The notes: generated by a model not told the origin, from the sequence alone. A stretch of 64,000 nt of DNA from Chloroflexota bacterium (GCA_009840355.1 VXNZ01000025.1:62001-126000), one strand, 5' to 3'. Counted from the first letter of the stretch, positions 3,538 through 13,408 are shown. Made by a program: numbers and translations.

Positions 3538-3578
3538 GATAGGTGGCAAGCAGCAGTGCGAATTACGGAGTGGCAGCA

Positions 3579-5441
3579 ATGTATGTCATTGGAACGGCTG
3601 GGCATGTTGACCATGGCAAATCGACGCTGGTCGAGGCACTGACGGGCATTGATCCGGACCGGCTGCGCGAGGAGAAAGAGCGCGGCCTGACCATCGACCT
3701 CGGCTTTGCGTGGCTGCAGCTACCGAGCGGCAACGAAACGAGCATCGTCGATGTGCCGGGACACGAGCGCTTCGTGAACAATATGCTCGCGGGCGTGGGC
3801 GGCATTGACCTGGCGCTGCTCGTGGTCGCGGCAGACGAGTCCGTGATGCCGCAGACTCGCGAACATCTGGCGATACTCGACCTGCTGCGCGTAGAGCGCG
3901 GACTCGTCGCGGTCACCAAGCGCGACCTCGTGGATGAAGACTGGCTCGAACTGGTGATTGCGGACGTGGAAGACACTCTCAAAGACACAATGCTCGAAAG
4001 TGCGGCGATATACCCCGTGTCCGCGATGACCGGTGAGGGTTTACCGGAACTCATCGCCTCCATCGACACGATGCTCGACGACACGCCGCCCAAGCGCGAT
4101 GTCGGACGGCCGCGCCTACCGATAGACAGGGCATTCACGATTTCGGGATTCGGCACGGTCGTCACCGGCACACTCATTGACGGCAAGATAAGCACAGGGC
4201 AGGATGTCGAACTCGTGGTCACCGGCAAGTCCACGCGCATACGCGGCTTGCAGACACACAAGAAGGGGCAGACCGAAGCGCAGCCCGGCACGCGCGTCGC
4301 AGCCAATATCATCAACATATCCCAGGACGAGGTAGCGCGCGGCGAGGTGCTGACGACCGAGGGATGGATGCGCCCAACGGACGCGATGGATGTGCGCCTG
4401 CGCGTGATACCGGACGCGCCGCACGCGCTACGCCACAATATGTACATCACCGTCCATACGGGCAGCAGCGAGGTCGTAGGGCGGCTACGGCTGCTCGAAC
4501 GCGACGTGCTCGAGCCGGGCGAGACGGGCTGGGCACAGTTGAAATTGGAATCTCCGCTCGCCGTCGTGAAGGGCGACTATTATGTCATCCGCTCCAATCG
4601 CACCACGCTCGGCGGCGGCAACATCGTGGAAACACACGCGCGGCGGCATCGTCGCGGACATGCGCCCACTATCGAACGCCTTGAGATGATGGAACTCGGT
4701 TCTACGCAAGACATACTGCTGAAGACCATCGAAACATCCGAGCCGAGCGAGTTCCGCGTGCTTGTAAATCGCGCCAACATGGACGAGAACACGGTCAAGT
4801 CCGAATTGGAGACGATGGCAACAGATAGCCTTGTCGTTAAATTGGGAATCGGTGACATCGGACAGGGTAGCATCCTGTACAGCGCGGGCGGATGGAACGG
4901 CGTCGTGGAAAAGACACAGCAATCGTTGGACGCGTACTACCGGCAATTTCCATTGCGGCGCGGCGCTCCCAAGGAAGAGTTACGCAGCAGGCTGGGAATG
5001 TCGGCGCAGGTGTTCAATCTTGCCTTCGCACGCTTGCAAGAGCAGGCAATCGTGGAAGAAGACGGCGCGCTCGCACGACTGCCCGGCTACGAACCGACGC
5101 TCAACGATGTGCAGAACAAGCAGGTCGCCGCATACCTGCAAACGCTCGAATCCGATCCATTCTCGCCGCCGACGGACGAGCCGCTAGACGACGAAGTGCT
5201 GAACCTTCTAGACGAACAGGGCAAAGTCGTTCGTGTCAGCGAAACGGTCGTGTATTCAGCAGACGCGTACGCCGAAATGGTGAAAATAATATCCGACTAC
5301 ATCCGTGACAACAGCGAGATAAGCGTGGCAGATGTGCGCGATGTGCTGGGCACAAGCCGAAAATACGCACTTGCGCTAATGGACTACCTGGACCACAAGC
5401 GCATCACCCGCCGCGTGGGCGACACACGGGTGCTACGGTGA
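3579..5441 (+). CDS. selB: Selenocysteine-specific translation elongation factor SelB
   Basis: GTPase that delivers Sec-tRNA to UGA codons in selenoprotein mRNAs. The N-terminus [16 protein letters not shown] carries the G1 P-loop; G3 is DVPGHE and G4 is TKRD, in place of the usual NKxD. EF-Tu-like domains II and III follow ('[13 protein letters not shown]', 'RGLQTHKK'), then the SelB-specific C-terminal winged-helix array ending with '[21 protein letters not shown]'. The start at ATG 3579 has a GGAG eight bases upstream; a GTG at 3543 would add 12 residues with no homology. Length 620 residues is normal for SelB. No selA, selD, selC or recognisable selenoprotein gene is in the window, so its clients lie elsewhere. 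Confidence 0.95.
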
Positions 5442-5533: not shown

Positions 5534-6745
5534 ATGATGGCACTCGACTTAACTCGCACGGCTATTCAGATTGATGACATGGCGGCTTCGCTCAGGGCGG
5601 GGCGCGCCGATTGGCACGCGCGGCTTGAGAGCGCAAGGGCTGCTGCGTTCAAGTTCGATCCGGTCGTGTATTCGGCTAAGCTAGGGCAGGCGGAGACGGA
5701 CTTAGACTGGGTTGTGCCGGATGTGTATGATCGGCTCGATGTGTCTTATGCGCCACCGCCGCTGCCACGCGATTACATCGTCGTGGGCGTGGACGGGTCG
5801 CACGTCGATGTGAGTCGGCATCTGCCTGCGCACTGCTACCTTATCAACATCGGCGGAATGACGCTCCGCTACGGCAGCGCCCCCGATGCGCAGGTTTTCA
5901 GCACGCCGCGCCTTTACGCTAATGCCGATGATCTGGTCATTCGCGACAGGGATGCGCCGTATCGCGAAGAAACGATTAGCGGTGCGCTGCTCGACGCCAA
6001 GCGTGCTGTTGAAGAACTTGCAGGGCTGCTCGAAAGACTGCGTGAGTCGCCGCCGGACATACCCGCAGTAGGGCTGATAGACGGCTCGCTGATTCTGTTC
6101 GGCATGCACCGGCATCCGCCTTTCGTCGTGCGCAATCTCGTCGAAGAAGGATATGTCGTGCTGTTAGACGAACTGCGTCAGTTATCGCTAGAGCGACCGC
6201 TTGCCATCGCGAGCTACATAAGCCTGCCGCGCAGTATGGAAGTGGTCAATGCGCTGCGCCTAGCGGTCTGCCCATATCCCGTCGCGGCCTGCGACCGCCA
6301 GTGCGGCGTAAAGCGCATCGGCGAGCGCCCATGCGATTTGGAAGTAGGCGGCGTACTCGACAGGCTGCTCTTCGATGATTTCCTCGGATTGGGCGAGCGG
6401 ACGGCGGCGTTCGGCAGCAACGCGGCAATCGTGCGAGACCGCTATGGCGGGCACGGCGTGTCTTTCTTCTATGTGAAAACCGAAGAGGAAATCGGGCGCG
6501 TGGAAGTGCCGGACTGGGTTGCCGAAGACGAAGCGCTGCTGGGCGTGGTGCATTCGCTGGTCGTGGAGCAGTGCCGCCTTGGACTGGGCTACCCTGTCGC
6601 GCTGAAAGAGGCACACGAGCAGGCGGTCGTAACCGGCGCGGATAGGCAGTACTTCGTGGCACTGATCGAAGACGCGCTCGAACAGCAAGGGCTGCCCGTC
6701 TATTCGTCCGAGAAGAACATATCGAAAATTAGGCGTTGGATTTAG
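5534..6745 (+). CDS. nurA: NurA-family 5'-3' nuclease
   Basis: A 403-residue NurA-domain protein. NurA resects DNA ends together with the HerA translocase; the HerA gene is the second one downstream. Visible catalytic elements are the acidic strand VVGVDGSH (Asp 87), the second acidic strand GLIDGSL (Asp 183), and the family's conserved end 'SSEKNISKIRR'. A four-cysteine patch, CPYPVAACDRQC plus a later PC, resembles the Cys-rich stretch I associate with bacterial NurA proteins. An AGGA stands just before two adjacent ATGs (5534 and 5537); either may be used. It lies 92 bp after selB. Confidence 0.85.
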   Translation: MMALDLTRTAIQIDDMAASLRAGRADWHARLESARAAAFKFDPVVYSAKLGQAETDLDWVVPDVYDRLDVSYAPPPLPRDYIVVGVDGSHVDVSRHLPAHCYLINIGGMTLRYGSAPDAQVFSTPRLYANADDLVIRDRDAPYREETISGALLDAKRAVEELAGLLERLRESPPDIPAVGLIDGSLILFGMHRHPPFVVRNLVEEGYVVLLDELRQLSLERPLAIASYISLPRSMEVVNALRLAVCPYPVAACDRQCGVKRIGERPCDLEVGGVLDRLLFDDFLGLGERTAAFGSNAAIVRDRYGGHGVSFFYVKTEEEIGRVEVPDWVAEDEALLGVVHSLVVEQCRLGLGYPVALKEAHEQAVVTGADRQYFVALIEDALEQQGLPVYSSEKNISKIRRWI

Positions 6746-6770
6746 TTGCCGAGACAATCTCATAGATTCC

Positions 6771-6806
6771 CTATCTGCCCCTATTGGGAGAAGGAAGGAA
6801 CGGGTA
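6771..6806 (+). repeat. Dispersed imperfect-dyad repeat, copy 1
   Basis: Contains GCCCCTATTGGGAGAAGG followed by AGGAACGGG. It fits a degenerate intergenic family whose consensus here is roughly TCCTTCCCC - TTCAA - GGGGAAGG followed by TTAGGATGGGG. Other copies are at 15566, 25731, 55125 and 63241. Confidence 0.4.
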
Positions 6807-6852
6807 TGACTTGGCATCAATTATGCCGCCTCCCAAGTATAATGGCGACAAT

Positions 6853-7488
6853 ATGACGGACGACAGTATGACAGATCAATACGCAACTGCCAGTGAACCG
6901 CAAACGGACAACAAGCGCAGGATGGGCGAGGTAATGGACGCATCGACGTCCGAGTTCACGGCGCAGTGCTACCGACTGTACGACGCGCCGGAGATTGGCA
7001 GCTTGGTGATGTGCGGGCAGGATGCCCCGGTGTACGGCATCGTGTACGAGGCTACGACGCAGAGCATCGATCCGGGCCGCGCCGCGATCCCTCGTGGAAT
7101 GCACGCGGAGAGCGAGGCGGATGTGCTGCATGACAATCCGCAGATTGAACGCCTGCTGTGCACGAAGTTTAGCGCTGTCGTGGTGGGCTACCGCGATGGT
7201 GATGCAGTCCGCCGCTATCCGCCGCTTATCGCGCCGCGCATCTTCTCGTTCGTGTGCGAGTGCGACGACGATGAGTTGGCAGAGTTTAGCAGCTCGCACG
7301 AGTTTCTGGCCCTTCTGCTCGCCGCTCCCACAGGTTCTCAAGACCATGTAATCGCGTCCTTCCTGCGGCGGGCAAGCGCGGCGAACACGGATTCGCATGG
7401 CTATCTCGTCAGCGCGGGCAAGAGCCTCGCCACAATGTTGCCCGGACAACTGCAGCGGCTCAGCGGCATTCTACGGAGTCTGGCGTAA
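6853..7488 (+). CDS. HAS-barrel-like protein between NurA and HerA
   Basis: About 211 residues from ATG 6853 (in-frame alternatives at 6823 and a TTG at 6784). The N-terminal 40 residues are low-complexity and polar. A core then reads as a small beta barrel: 'CYRLYDAPEIGSLVMCG', 'VYGIVYEATTQSIDPGR', a stretch of acidic and helical residues, and 'KFSAVVVGYRDGDAVRRYPP'. This resembles the HAS barrel that precedes the ATPase in HerA proteins, in stand-alone form. The C-terminal half is helical. Lying between nurA and herA, it probably works with them, for example as an adaptor for complex loading. That is inference; no catalytic motif is visible. Confidence 0.65.
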   Translation: MTDDSMTDQYATASEPQTDNKRRMGEVMDASTSEFTAQCYRLYDAPEIGSLVMCGQDAPVYGIVYEATTQSIDPGRAAIPRGMHAESEADVLHDNPQIERLLCTKFSAVVVGYRDGDAVRRYPPLIAPRIFSFVCECDDDELAEFSSSHEFLALLLAAPTGSQDHVIASFLRRASAANTDSHGYLVSAGKSLATMLPGQLQRLSGILRSLA

Positions 7489-7619
7489 TCACCGTCGCAT
7501 ACTTCCTTTACCTATTGAAACGGCAAGTCTAGGATGGCGATGATAACGGCGTTGAACACTTCAATTCAGTAATTCAGGCTGGCACGAACGATTCGACCGT
7601 ATGGAAATAGGAGTTCGGA

Positions 7620-9293
7620 ATGAACGGCTCAATGAACACAAACGGCGCAGTCAACGGCTTTACAGCATTCCCGGACGGTCGGGTACCGCTTGGCACGGTT
7701 GTCGCCGGCTCGCTGAGCGACGGCATACAAGTGCGACTTGACGACGGCGTGTCAGTGGAAGACATGAAGGTCGGCACATTCATCAGCATACAGGGACAGC
7801 GCCATCGCTTCTTGGGCGTGCTGACCGAAATTGAACTGGAATCAACAGATGACGGCATCGCCGCCACGCCGCCGGATACGTCCAGCCCACTCTTGTCGCA
7901 GGTGCTGAGCGGCACAATCGCGTACAACAGCCTGACGGTCGAGCCGATGCTCACCGTCAGCGCGGACGCCGAGAATCCGGTTAAGCCCGCGAAGACCATA
8001 CCGCCGCACTTTTCGCGCGTGTCGCAGGCATCAGAGGAAGACATTCAGACCGTGTTCGGCGGCGAGGAGCAAGGGCATTTCTACATCGGCAATCCGATGG
8101 ATATGGAAGCGCGGCTGTGCCTCAACATGGACGAGCTGGTGAAGCGCAGCAACGGCGTGTTCGGCAAGAGCGGTACGGGCAAGACATTCCTGACGCGCCT
8201 GCTGCTCATCGGCATCCTGCAACACGGCATTGCCAGCAACCTGATATTTGATATGCACGGCGAATACGGCTGGCGCGGTTCCAGCGAGCACACCACTGAG
8301 GTCAAAGGACTTAAGCAGCTCTTTGGATCGAAAGTCGCCGTGTTCTCACTGGATCCGGAGAACGACAGAAATCGCAGATTAACACCCGACTATCAGATTA
8401 GAATCGGATATGAAGAAATCGAGCCGGAAGATGTGGCAATACTCAAGGATGCTTGGGGGCTGTCTGAAATCGCCGCGGAATCCGCATATTCGCTCCGACA
8501 GATTCTCGGGGCCGGTTGGGTCAGCGAGTTTATGAGTTACCCCGCCGGCGAAGAGTTCAACGAGCTCGCGCAACGGGTCGGCGTGCCTGCAAGCACGCTG
8601 AACGCGCTCCGCAGCCGCTTGCGACCACTGACACGCTACGAATTCATGACGGAAGGCAAAGGCAACAACTCGGTGCGCGAGATAATGAACTACCTGCAGG
8701 CCGGGAAGCATGTCGTCCTGGAGTTTGGCAAGCACGGCAACGACATTGGCGCGTACCTGCTGATAGCGAACATGCTGACGCGGCGCATCCACGAGCAGTA
8801 TGTGCGAATGTCCGAGCAGGCGAGCGCCGACCCTACACAGCAGCCGCGTCCGCTGGTCATCACCATCGAAGAGGCGCACCGGTTCCTCAGCCCCGCCATC
8901 GCCAGAAACACCATATTCGGCAACATCGCGCGTGAGATGCGCAAGTACAACGTTACGCTGCTAGTGGTGGACCAGCGACCGAGCGGCATCGACGACGAAG
9001 TTATGAGCCAGCTCGGCACAAAGATCGCCTGCCTGCTGGATAACGAAAAAGACACGGACGCCGTGTTGTCCGGCGTGTCCGGTAGCCGCAAGCTGCGAAC
9101 CGTGCTGGCGCGGCTTGAGTCCAACCGCCAGGCACTCGTCTTCGGGCACGCGCTTCCGATGCCCGTCGTAATCCAGACACGCGAGTACGGCACCCCGGAT
9201 TCGTATCGCGAACTCGGCGTAATAGATGACGAAGAACGGCAGGCGCAGACGCAGCGTGATGTTGATGCGTTGTTCGGTGCCGCATCATGCTAG
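7620..9293 (+). CDS. herA: HerA-family DNA translocase ATPase
   Basis: 557 residues. Residues 20-75 form an N-terminal HAS-barrel-like domain ('GTVVAGSLSDGIQVRLDDG'). The RecA-like HerA/FtsK-type ATPase follows: Walker A GKSGTGKT at 182-189, the DMHGEYGW segment, Walker B 'LVITIEEAHRFL', and a sensor region DQRPSGIDDEVMSQ. HerA forms a hexameric ring that drives NurA along DNA ends. The ATG at 7620 is preceded by AGGAG. The nurA, HAS-barrel and herA genes sit in that order on one strand with gaps of about 110 and 130 bp, consistent with a shared function. Known mainly from archaea, the pair also occurs in some bacteria. Confidence 0.9.
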   Translation: MNGSMNTNGAVNGFTAFPDGRVPLGTVVAGSLSDGIQVRLDDGVSVEDMKVGTFISIQGQRHRFLGVLTEIELESTDDGIAATPPDTSSPLLSQVLSGTIAYNSLTVEPMLTVSADAENPVKPAKTIPPHFSRVSQASEEDIQTVFGGEEQGHFYIGNPMDMEARLCLNMDELVKRSNGVFGKSGTGKTFLTRLLLIGILQHGIASNLIFDMHGEYGWRGSSEHTTEVKGLKQLFGSKVAVFSLDPENDRNRRLTPDYQIRIGYEEIEPEDVAILKDAWGLSEIAAESAYSLRQILGAGWVSEFMSYPAGEEFNELAQRVGVPASTLNALRSRLRPLTRYEFMTEGKGNNSVREIMNYLQAGKHVVLEFGKHGNDIGAYLLIANMLTRRIHEQYVRMSEQASADPTQQPRPLVITIEEAHRFLSPAIARNTIFGNIAREMRKYNVTLLVVDQRPSGIDDEVMSQLGTKIACLLDNEKDTDAVLSGVSGSRKLRTVLARLESNRQALVFGHALPMPVVIQTREYGTPDSYRELGVIDDEERQAQTQRDVDALFGAASC

Positions 9294-11917: not shown

Positions 11918-13408
11918 TTAGCCGCATCCGTGTGCCAGTGCCATGAGCGCCTTACGCAGTTCCACCATTGCCAGAGTGTCGCGGGCGCAGTAAGCGCGCA
12001 AGTTGTCGAATATCTGACGCCTCTCCCCTGCATCGGCAGTTGCCACGGCGCGAGCATACCAGACTGATGCCATTCGCCCATCGGCAACTTCCAAGTCGTC
12101 GTAGCCCATACCGGGCGCAATTATCGGCAGCACGGATTTGAGTGAGAATGAACCTCGAAAGCCGGGATGGTAGTAACCGCTTCTCACAATCGGCAGCAGG
12201 TCAACAAGGCGCGCGATAATGTCTTCAAGCGCATTGGCATATTGCGGGAAGGCAGCCGCAAGCGCATTTAGCTGGATTCGCTCAAATCTCGAATACACGC
12301 AGATGCTGCCTTCGCCACCAAGGGCTTCAAGCAACCATTCCACGAGCAGAGGGCGCGGGTCGCTGTTGTCTTCGTGCATGTATTCCGTATGCTCGGGCGG
12401 CCTCCCGTACGTCTCTTTGTGGACGGAAAACAGAAACGGGATTTGGTCGTAGGGGCGTGTGCCGGCGAACCGTGGGATGGCAGGCTGAAAGGTCTCGAAG
12501 TCAAGATGGCGCACGGGCGGCGTTATTTCGGCAAGCGAACTCGCTAAGTCGCCATGCACAGTGTCGCGTCCATCCCGCACAGATTGGTGGATGATGGATT
12601 GCAGCCGGTTGAGCGGGAAGCCGCCTGGAACGTCGCGCACTTCGGTAATGCCCATGGCTTCGAGTTCTTCACGGCGATTGATCCTGATACCGTTCAGTTC
12701 GCCGATGCCGTGTTCGGGTTGTGGGGTGTCTTGCGTGCAATGCTCATAGTACGGGCAGACATAGGGCTTCAGACAGTGCTGACCGGGCGCGATGTCGGGG
12801 GCATCGTCTGCGGCAAGCATAGCCTGCATGTCAACTACATCCGCTCCGACGCTTTCGAGCAACGCATCCGCCTCGTCGAGCACCGGATGAAACTTGAACA
12901 AGGCATCAAGGTCAAGTCGAAGCCCGTCGTAGATGTAATCGCGGTTGAGAGTGAGCACGCCCGCATCCTGCACATCCAGCCCGGCGCCTCGCAGCACCCA
13001 TAGCTGCACGGCCGCATCGAGAATATGCTCATCCTTACAGCGCGTGGTCGATTTGACTTCAACCATACGCCAGCCGCCATCGGGCAAACGCTCAAGCACA
13101 TCGACGCGCGACAGAACGTTGTCGTGCTGGAATGCCGGCTCAAACAGGGCGGCAGCGGTGTCTGCCTCGATGAGACGCTGCGTTTCGGCGAGCGCGGCGG
13201 GTATGTTGCGGTAGTCTTGCGCTATCAGATGACCGCCGGGGTAACGCTCACGCGCCAGGTCTCCGACCTCGTGGCCTGTGTTGAATGTCGCCTGCTGCAC
13301 CTCGATTATGGGCGGCATTAGATGCCGTTCGTGGACATCGTACCAGAGGCGCAGGTGGCACTGGTTGCCGGACATGAAGCGGGATTTCGAGAGGCGGTGT
13401 TGGGGCAA
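11918..13408 (-). CDS. Cas4-like PD-(D/E)XK nuclease fused to a DEDD exonuclease-like DUF2779 domain
   Basis: 496 residues. The N-terminal half looks like a Cas4/AddB-type nuclease: Asp 103 and 'VEVKST' (Glu 117, Lys 119) form the PD-(D/E)XK core, and four cysteines (C17, then C212, C218, C223) are placed to bind a [4Fe-4S] cluster. The C-terminal half (about 295-496) has an RNase H-like DEDD pattern, starting with 'HLDFETF' (Asp 303, Glu 305) and ending with 'YCARDTLAMVEL', as in DUF2779 proteins. The start is TTG 13408 with AAGG upstream; ATG 13375 would cut close to C17. Known relatives are poorly characterised. The pairing suggests single-strand DNA or RNA end processing (inference). Confidence 0.8.
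   Translation of the reverse strand: MPQHRLSKSRFMSGNQCHLRLWYDVHERHLMPPIIEVQQATFNTGHEVGDLARERYPGGHLIAQDYRNIPAALAETQRLIEADTAAALFEPAFQHDNVLSRVDVLERLPDGGWRMVEVKSTTRCKDEHILDAAVQLWVLRGAGLDVQDAGVLTLNRDYIYDGLRLDLDALFKFHPVLDEADALLESVGADVVDMQAMLAADDAPDIAPGQHCLKPYVCPYYEHCTQDTPQPEHGIGELNGIRINRREELEAMGITEVRDVPGGFPLNRLQSIIHQSVRDGRDTVHGDLASSLAEITPPVRHLDFETFQPAIPRFAGTRPYDQIPFLFSVHKETYGRPPEHTEYMHEDNSDPRPLLVEWLLEALGGEGSICVYSRFERIQLNALAAAFPQYANALEDIIARLVDLLPIVRSGYYHPGFRGSFSLKSVLPIIAPGMGYDDLEVADGRMASVWYARAVATADAGERRQIFDNLRAYCARDTLAMVELRKALMALAHGCG

Follow-up and report, generated by a model that had tools for sequence, protein, structure and literature searches.

Gene content of the locus

The window, a 64,000-nucleotide stretch of contig C25, comes from a SAR202-like Dehalococcoidia genome (Chloroflexota) of 3.28 Mb. 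Three genes follow one another on its + strand, in the order NurA, a middle gene and HerA (Table 1, positions counted from the first letter of the window). In a comparison of 14 named loci retrieved by a narrow alignment around the cluster, the closest named relatives were Chloroflexi bacterium SB0664_bin_29 and SAR202 / Dehalococcoidia MAGs.

Both flanking genes were identified by Pfam. NurA matched PF09376 at 64.5 bits, above the curated cut-off of 21. The DUF87/RecA-like ATPase core of HerA scored 94.5 bits (cut-off 23.2) and its N-terminal HAS barrel, PF09378, scored 28.9 bits (cut-off 25.2), confirming the preliminary description, which stated that HerA already has a HAS barrel of its own. 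The best score against the NCBIfam HerA equivalogs was 81.6 bits for a cut-off of 800; the protein encoded in the window is therefore a divergent translocase of the HerA family that falls outside these equivalogs. A PDB sequence search with NurA returned spurious matches only, and drHerA, which carries the acidic triad D78, E80 and D81, was not among the sequence matches.

Directly 5' of NurA, a gene at 3543-5441 (+) encodes a SelB-like selenocysteine-specific elongation factor (PF00009, SelB winged helices). Two genes lie 3' of HerA on the opposite strand, encoding a zincin-like metallopeptidase (PF06262; 11498-11860, -) and a DUF2779 protein with weak similarity to RNase_H_2 (11918-13408, -).

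Table 1 Features of the NurA-HerA cluster in the window
Feature	Position	Strand	Evidence
NurA nuclease, 403 aa	5534..6745	+	PF09376 E 1.4e-17; two DGS acidic motifs in the translation
Middle gene, predicted stand-alone HAS-barrel protein, ~211 aa, start uncertain	6784..7488	+	Conserved frame, AlphaFold2 model, fold matches
Middle protein, predicted barrel domain, residues 23-137 (from ATG 6853)	6919..7263	+	Model strands; fold alignment
Middle protein, barrel loop and alpha1, residues 72-101	7066..7155	+	Model topology; conservation
Middle protein, predicted C-terminal five-helix domain, beyond the HAS barrel	7264..7488	+	Model of the domain alone
HerA translocase, 557 aa	7620..9293	+	PF01935 E 1.3e-26
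HerA, own HAS barrel, Pfam-matched part, residues 25-77	7692..7850	+	PF09378 28.9 bits

The middle frame is a conserved gene outside known families

The stop codon of the middle gene is found at 7486-7488. Its start is uncertain and could be TTG 6784, ATG 6823, ATG 6853 or ATG 6868; relatives begin to align at about 6919, where the conserved core starts. The frame was kept in 49 of 60 relatives (30-83% identity). Almost all matches had it open, and a single one of the conserved relatives showed an internal stop. This conservation, together with the recurring order NurA - middle gene - HerA, excludes a chance ORF.

No Pfam or NCBIfam family was matched by the middle protein, even at E 1, and searches against PHROGs and the PADLOC models returned no match either. 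No catalytic family was found, which agrees with the earlier observation that the protein has no obvious catalytic motif. A search of plasmids with the middle protein found nothing. The window protein had no PF09378 match in Pfam; weak matches to this family were found for 9 of 29 relatives (best E 0.003). Alignment of the middle family with the HerA N-terminus by hhalign gave E 0.007-0.01, and the best value obtained with shuffled columns of another family was 0.007 (n = 40). The sequence similarity between the two barrels is thus within the range of chance, and the equivalence of the docking loop proposed below is drawn from the fold and not from sequence.

The middle protein is predicted to form a HAS-type barrel

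PDB sequence searches were uninformative, both with the middle-family profile (chance lipase matches only) and with the diverged homologue X described below (no matches), and a comparison of folds was therefore needed. An AlphaFold2 model of the middle protein alone, built with 15 sequences, showed a beta barrel followed by a five-helix tail (pLDDT 84, pTM 0.77). Strands are predicted at residues 23-71 and 102-136, separated by a low-confidence loop with short helices (residues ~72-100), the five helices following the second set of strands.

All 50 Foldseek matches listed against the PDB were HerA or the HerA-like protein TdpA (best E 6.6e-7). They came from Thermococcus HerA-NurA, Sulfolobus HerA, Deinococcus HerA, SIR2-HerA, DUF4297-HerA and the TdpA component of TdpAB. 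With VIA-align 2, N-terminal domains of the HerA family filled ranks 1 to 24 (best Z 13.8, rmsd 3.0, 113 aligned residues), and F1-ATPase barrels came next with Z ~10. The barrel of the middle protein aligned to residues ~1-140 of HerA with Z 10-14. The model therefore indicates a HAS-type barrel fold, one that is not evident by sequence alone; since HerA and then F1-ATPase barrels were the best fold matches, the preliminary description was right to call a stand-alone, HAS-barrel-like protein between NurA and HerA. The full model compared with viral proteins gave nothing significant.

The loop and alpha1 region (residues 72-101) contains conserved D-P-x-R, R-G and N-P-Q motifs in a part of the model with low confidence. 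In Thermococcus kodakarensis HerA, NurA is contacted via the alpha1 helices of the HAS domains and the loops preceding them (PMC12977600). The loop and alpha1 of the middle protein may be the topological counterpart of this archaeal docking loop and helix. Stronger conservation was expected for a docking loop than for the remaining barrel; the loop proved to be as conserved as the strands and not more so. The C-terminal helical domain was modelled alone with a pLDDT of 89.4, and its comparison with solved structures gave no convincing match (best Z 6.1, within the range of helical bundles).

NurA, the middle protein and HerA co-occur across the Chloroflexota

All searches were compared over one set of 301 Chloroflexota genomes. 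The middle protein was present in 115, NurA in 187 and the HerA type of the window, counting strong matches, in 118. NurA was found in 114 of the 115 genomes encoding the middle protein and this HerA type in 113; because of the relatedness among these genomes, Fisher p-values on these numbers overstate independence. In 73 of the 113 genomes the middle gene preceded HerA on the same strand by at most 2 kb, commonly with a gap of 0-100 bp. The order NurA - middle gene - HerA seen in the window recurs in other Chloroflexota. Of the two outcomes that the preliminary description named as refuting it, absence of a barrel fold and lack of a conserved order, neither was obtained. In the other 40 genomes, the middle gene and HerA were separated by more than 5 kb or were encoded on different contigs or strands; the middle gene adjoined NurA in at least 29 of these, as read from the listed positions. 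Co-retention of unlinked genes is the stronger point, because position cannot explain it.

Five genomes had the HerA type of the window and no match to the middle protein. In one of them (G096), a wider profile revealed a diverged copy beside HerA (E 1e-15), and in two (G195 and G235) HerA was located at a contig end. In the remaining two (G083 and G297), HerA was in assembled sequence and no middle gene was detected beside it or elsewhere.

In several loci, other genes were inserted between NurA and the middle gene (L064, L069, L070, L071 and L112) or between the middle gene and HerA (L106). By eye, these resembled acetyltransferases, flavodoxins or ferredoxins, methyltransferases and a four-helix protein. 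They were rejected as parts of the machine, being mutually unrelated and different between genomes.

The broad and mostly single-copy presence across the phylum would be more in keeping with a housekeeping function than with mobile defence.

A diverged homologue accompanies a second HerA type and occurs on haloarchaeal plasmids

Most NurA-bearing genomes without the middle protein were found to carry another gene of about 200 codons, X, usually beside a second, diverged HerA type and often between it and NurA. Comparison of the middle family with X by hhalign gave a probability of 97.6 and E 4.3e-12 over 172 columns; the best value in 40 column shuffles was 0.007, and reversal gave 0.27. Profile comparison thus indicates that the two families are homologous over their length.

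X matched 59 of the 301 Chloroflexota genomes. One of these matches (E 1e-3) was the middle protein itself and was excluded from the combined counts. Either form was present in 169 of the 187 NurA genomes; only three genomes had one of them without NurA, and only one had both. Their distribution tracks that of the two HerA types. In some genomes (e.g. G109), the X-HerA genes and NurA were on different contigs. At one locus with the second HerA type (L146, G151:C1:600500-613500; HerA E 4e-69), the upstream neighbour of about 380 aa was not recognised by the X profile and is possibly a further-diverged or a different partner.

Searches of phages and of viral contigs with X found nothing. Four haloarchaeal plasmids were matched by the X profile with E 3e-17 to 8e-9, and a second X query confirmed these matches; X is annotated as 'hypothetical protein' on all four. 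On the plasmids of Natrinema zhouii, Halobaculum marinum and archaeon DL31, the genes encode in order a metallophosphoesterase, an SMC-family ATPase, NurA, X and an ATP-binding protein, an order that we read as Mre11-Rad50-NurA-X-HerA. On the Halorussus salilacus plasmid, the start of the record cuts off the NurA side of the locus. These copies carry all four genes of the archaeal mre11-rad50-nurA-herA operon, with the same nuclease-translocase pair, and differ from it in that X separates nurA from herA. In the Haloferax volcanii genome used as a control, PF09376 (NurA) scored above its cut-off; according to a review, this species lacks both HerA and NurA (PMC7776575).

Collectively, the co-occurrence and the conserved order across the phylum and on haloarchaeal plasmids strongly support a partnership of NurA, the middle protein and HerA as one machine. 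They back the partner role that had been suggested for the middle protein and support the proposal that the cluster encodes an incompletely described machine. The two specific roles put forward in the preliminary description, adaptor and loader, are both still hypothetical.

Possible role of the middle protein

HerA HAS domains are the NurA-binding element: they surround the exit of the DNA channel as a collar, to which the NurA dimer is bound with an overall 6:2 stoichiometry (PMC9960219, PMC12977600). The solved NurA-HerA complexes of D. radiodurans (PDB 7f6d, 7wrw and 7wrx) and T. kodakarensis (9x1l and 9x1m) resemble the products of the window in that NurA and HerA are likewise clustered and HerA has an N-terminal HAS barrel and an ATPase core. 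Unlike the cluster in the window, they have been described as two-component 6:2 assemblies without a third HAS-barrel protein. The anti-phage systems SIR2-HerA (Nezha) and DUF4297-HerA, whose HerA chains were among the best fold matches, also consist of a HerA ring with a docked effector; they are two-component effectors, whereas the cluster in the window combines NurA with a third barrel protein. The middle protein shares its predicted barrel fold with the PF09378 domains of HerA and F1-ATPase (Z 9-14). In contrast to the proteins that carry these domains, it is separate, lacks an ATPase, has a helical tail and is not called by Pfam.

A HAS-like fold, kept in the company of HerA in Chloroflexota and on haloarchaeal plasmids, suggests that the middle protein is probably the missing third part of the machine. 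We therefore hypothesize, with slightly better than even confidence, that the product of the middle gene is a dedicated third subunit whose HAS barrel serves as an adaptor between HerA ring and NurA dimer. The protein would be a HAS barrel without an ATPase, with a helical tail instead. From the known contacts between HerA HAS domains and NurA and from the conserved loop at the same place of the barrel, we infer that its docking site is the HAS-barrel collar of the HerA hexamer, the place at which double-stranded DNA leaves the ring and NurA binds. The free barrel would join the collar or stack on it and contact NurA, fitting the six-fold ring to the dimer and thereby positioning or gating the nuclease. 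The helical tail could hold the protein on NurA, HerA or another factor. This adaptor mechanism is suggested by homology to the NurA-docking domain, and binding, place in the complex and effect are all putative. More tentatively, and with a probability a little short of even, the third subunit may be obligate in the NurA-HerA systems of Chloroflexota and of some haloarchaeal plasmids, its free HAS barrel providing a mixed or second collar between motor and nuclease.

Several observations weigh against a dedicated third subunit. In Deinococcus and Thermus, the genes of NurA and HerA have been described as a pair, with no third gene accompanying them (PMC5448004, PMC9960219). The putative docking loop is conserved only to the same degree as the remainder of the barrel, and the sequence similarity of the middle protein to the barrel of HerA does not exceed chance. 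G083 and G297 have the HerA type with no middle gene detected.

Alternatively, the barrel could mimic the HerA collar and act as a regulator or competitor, binding NurA or capping HerA so that the nuclease is held off until a break is engaged, and then being displaced. NurA by itself is able to cut single-stranded DNA (PMC9960219, PMC12977600), the middle protein shares its fold with the NurA-binding domain, and its gene remains beside NurA in most genomes where HerA is not close. For a mere inhibitor, however, one would predict easier loss or a distribution matching that of NurA, and the two forms follow the HerA types instead; we consider this role rather unlikely.

It is quite improbable that the middle protein is a loader that opens the HerA hexamer or nucleates it on a DNA end, in the manner of clamp and helicase loaders, and then leaves. 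No ATPase or DNA-binding motif was recognised in it, although a barrel resembling those of the collar might slot into the HerA ring, and a heptameric loading form of HerA has been proposed (cited in PMC12977600).

The separate and conserved helical domain, for which neither HerA nor any other solved fold gave a convincing match, could also make the protein a bridge, its barrel on HerA or NurA and its tail on Mre11-Rad50/SbcCD, SSB, RecJ or RecA. Deinococcus HerA binds RecJ (PMC4663267), and Mre11-Rad50 is encoded within the same haloarchaeal operon. In the Chloroflexota loci inspected, by contrast, no further gene was conserved beside the trio and the inserts varied by genome, and this possibility appears very improbable.

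That the middle gene is a degenerate duplicate of the HerA N-terminus, kept by chance position and without functional link, is scarcely credible and already largely refuted: the two share a fold, but the middle protein is conserved over its full length down to ~30% identity, shows no sequence-level closeness to HerA of the same genome, is co-retained when unlinked to HerA and has a homologue at the same place in archaea.

The third component gives a direct handle on two open questions (PMC12977600), the matching of the six-fold HerA ring with a NurA dimer and the choice between end resection and destruction of foreign DNA. No description of a third HAS-barrel component of NurA-HerA was found in the open literature searched, a coverage that did not extend to the 2004 superfamily survey. 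As such a component is encoded in nearly all NurA-bearing Chloroflexota and in the haloarchaeal operons, two-protein reconstitutions would miss part of the system there. The proposal also provides a hypothesis for a 'hypothetical protein' family of Dehalococcoidia and many other Chloroflexota.

Even the two-component form has yet to be assigned to the repair of breaks or to an attack on foreign DNA (PMC12977600). The genome of the window also encodes an AddAB-like pair, two adjacent large PDDEXK_1 proteins (G000:C26:40741-45040), and SbcD (G000:C29:24172-24954), indicating that NurA-HerA is not the sole end-processing system in this bacterium.
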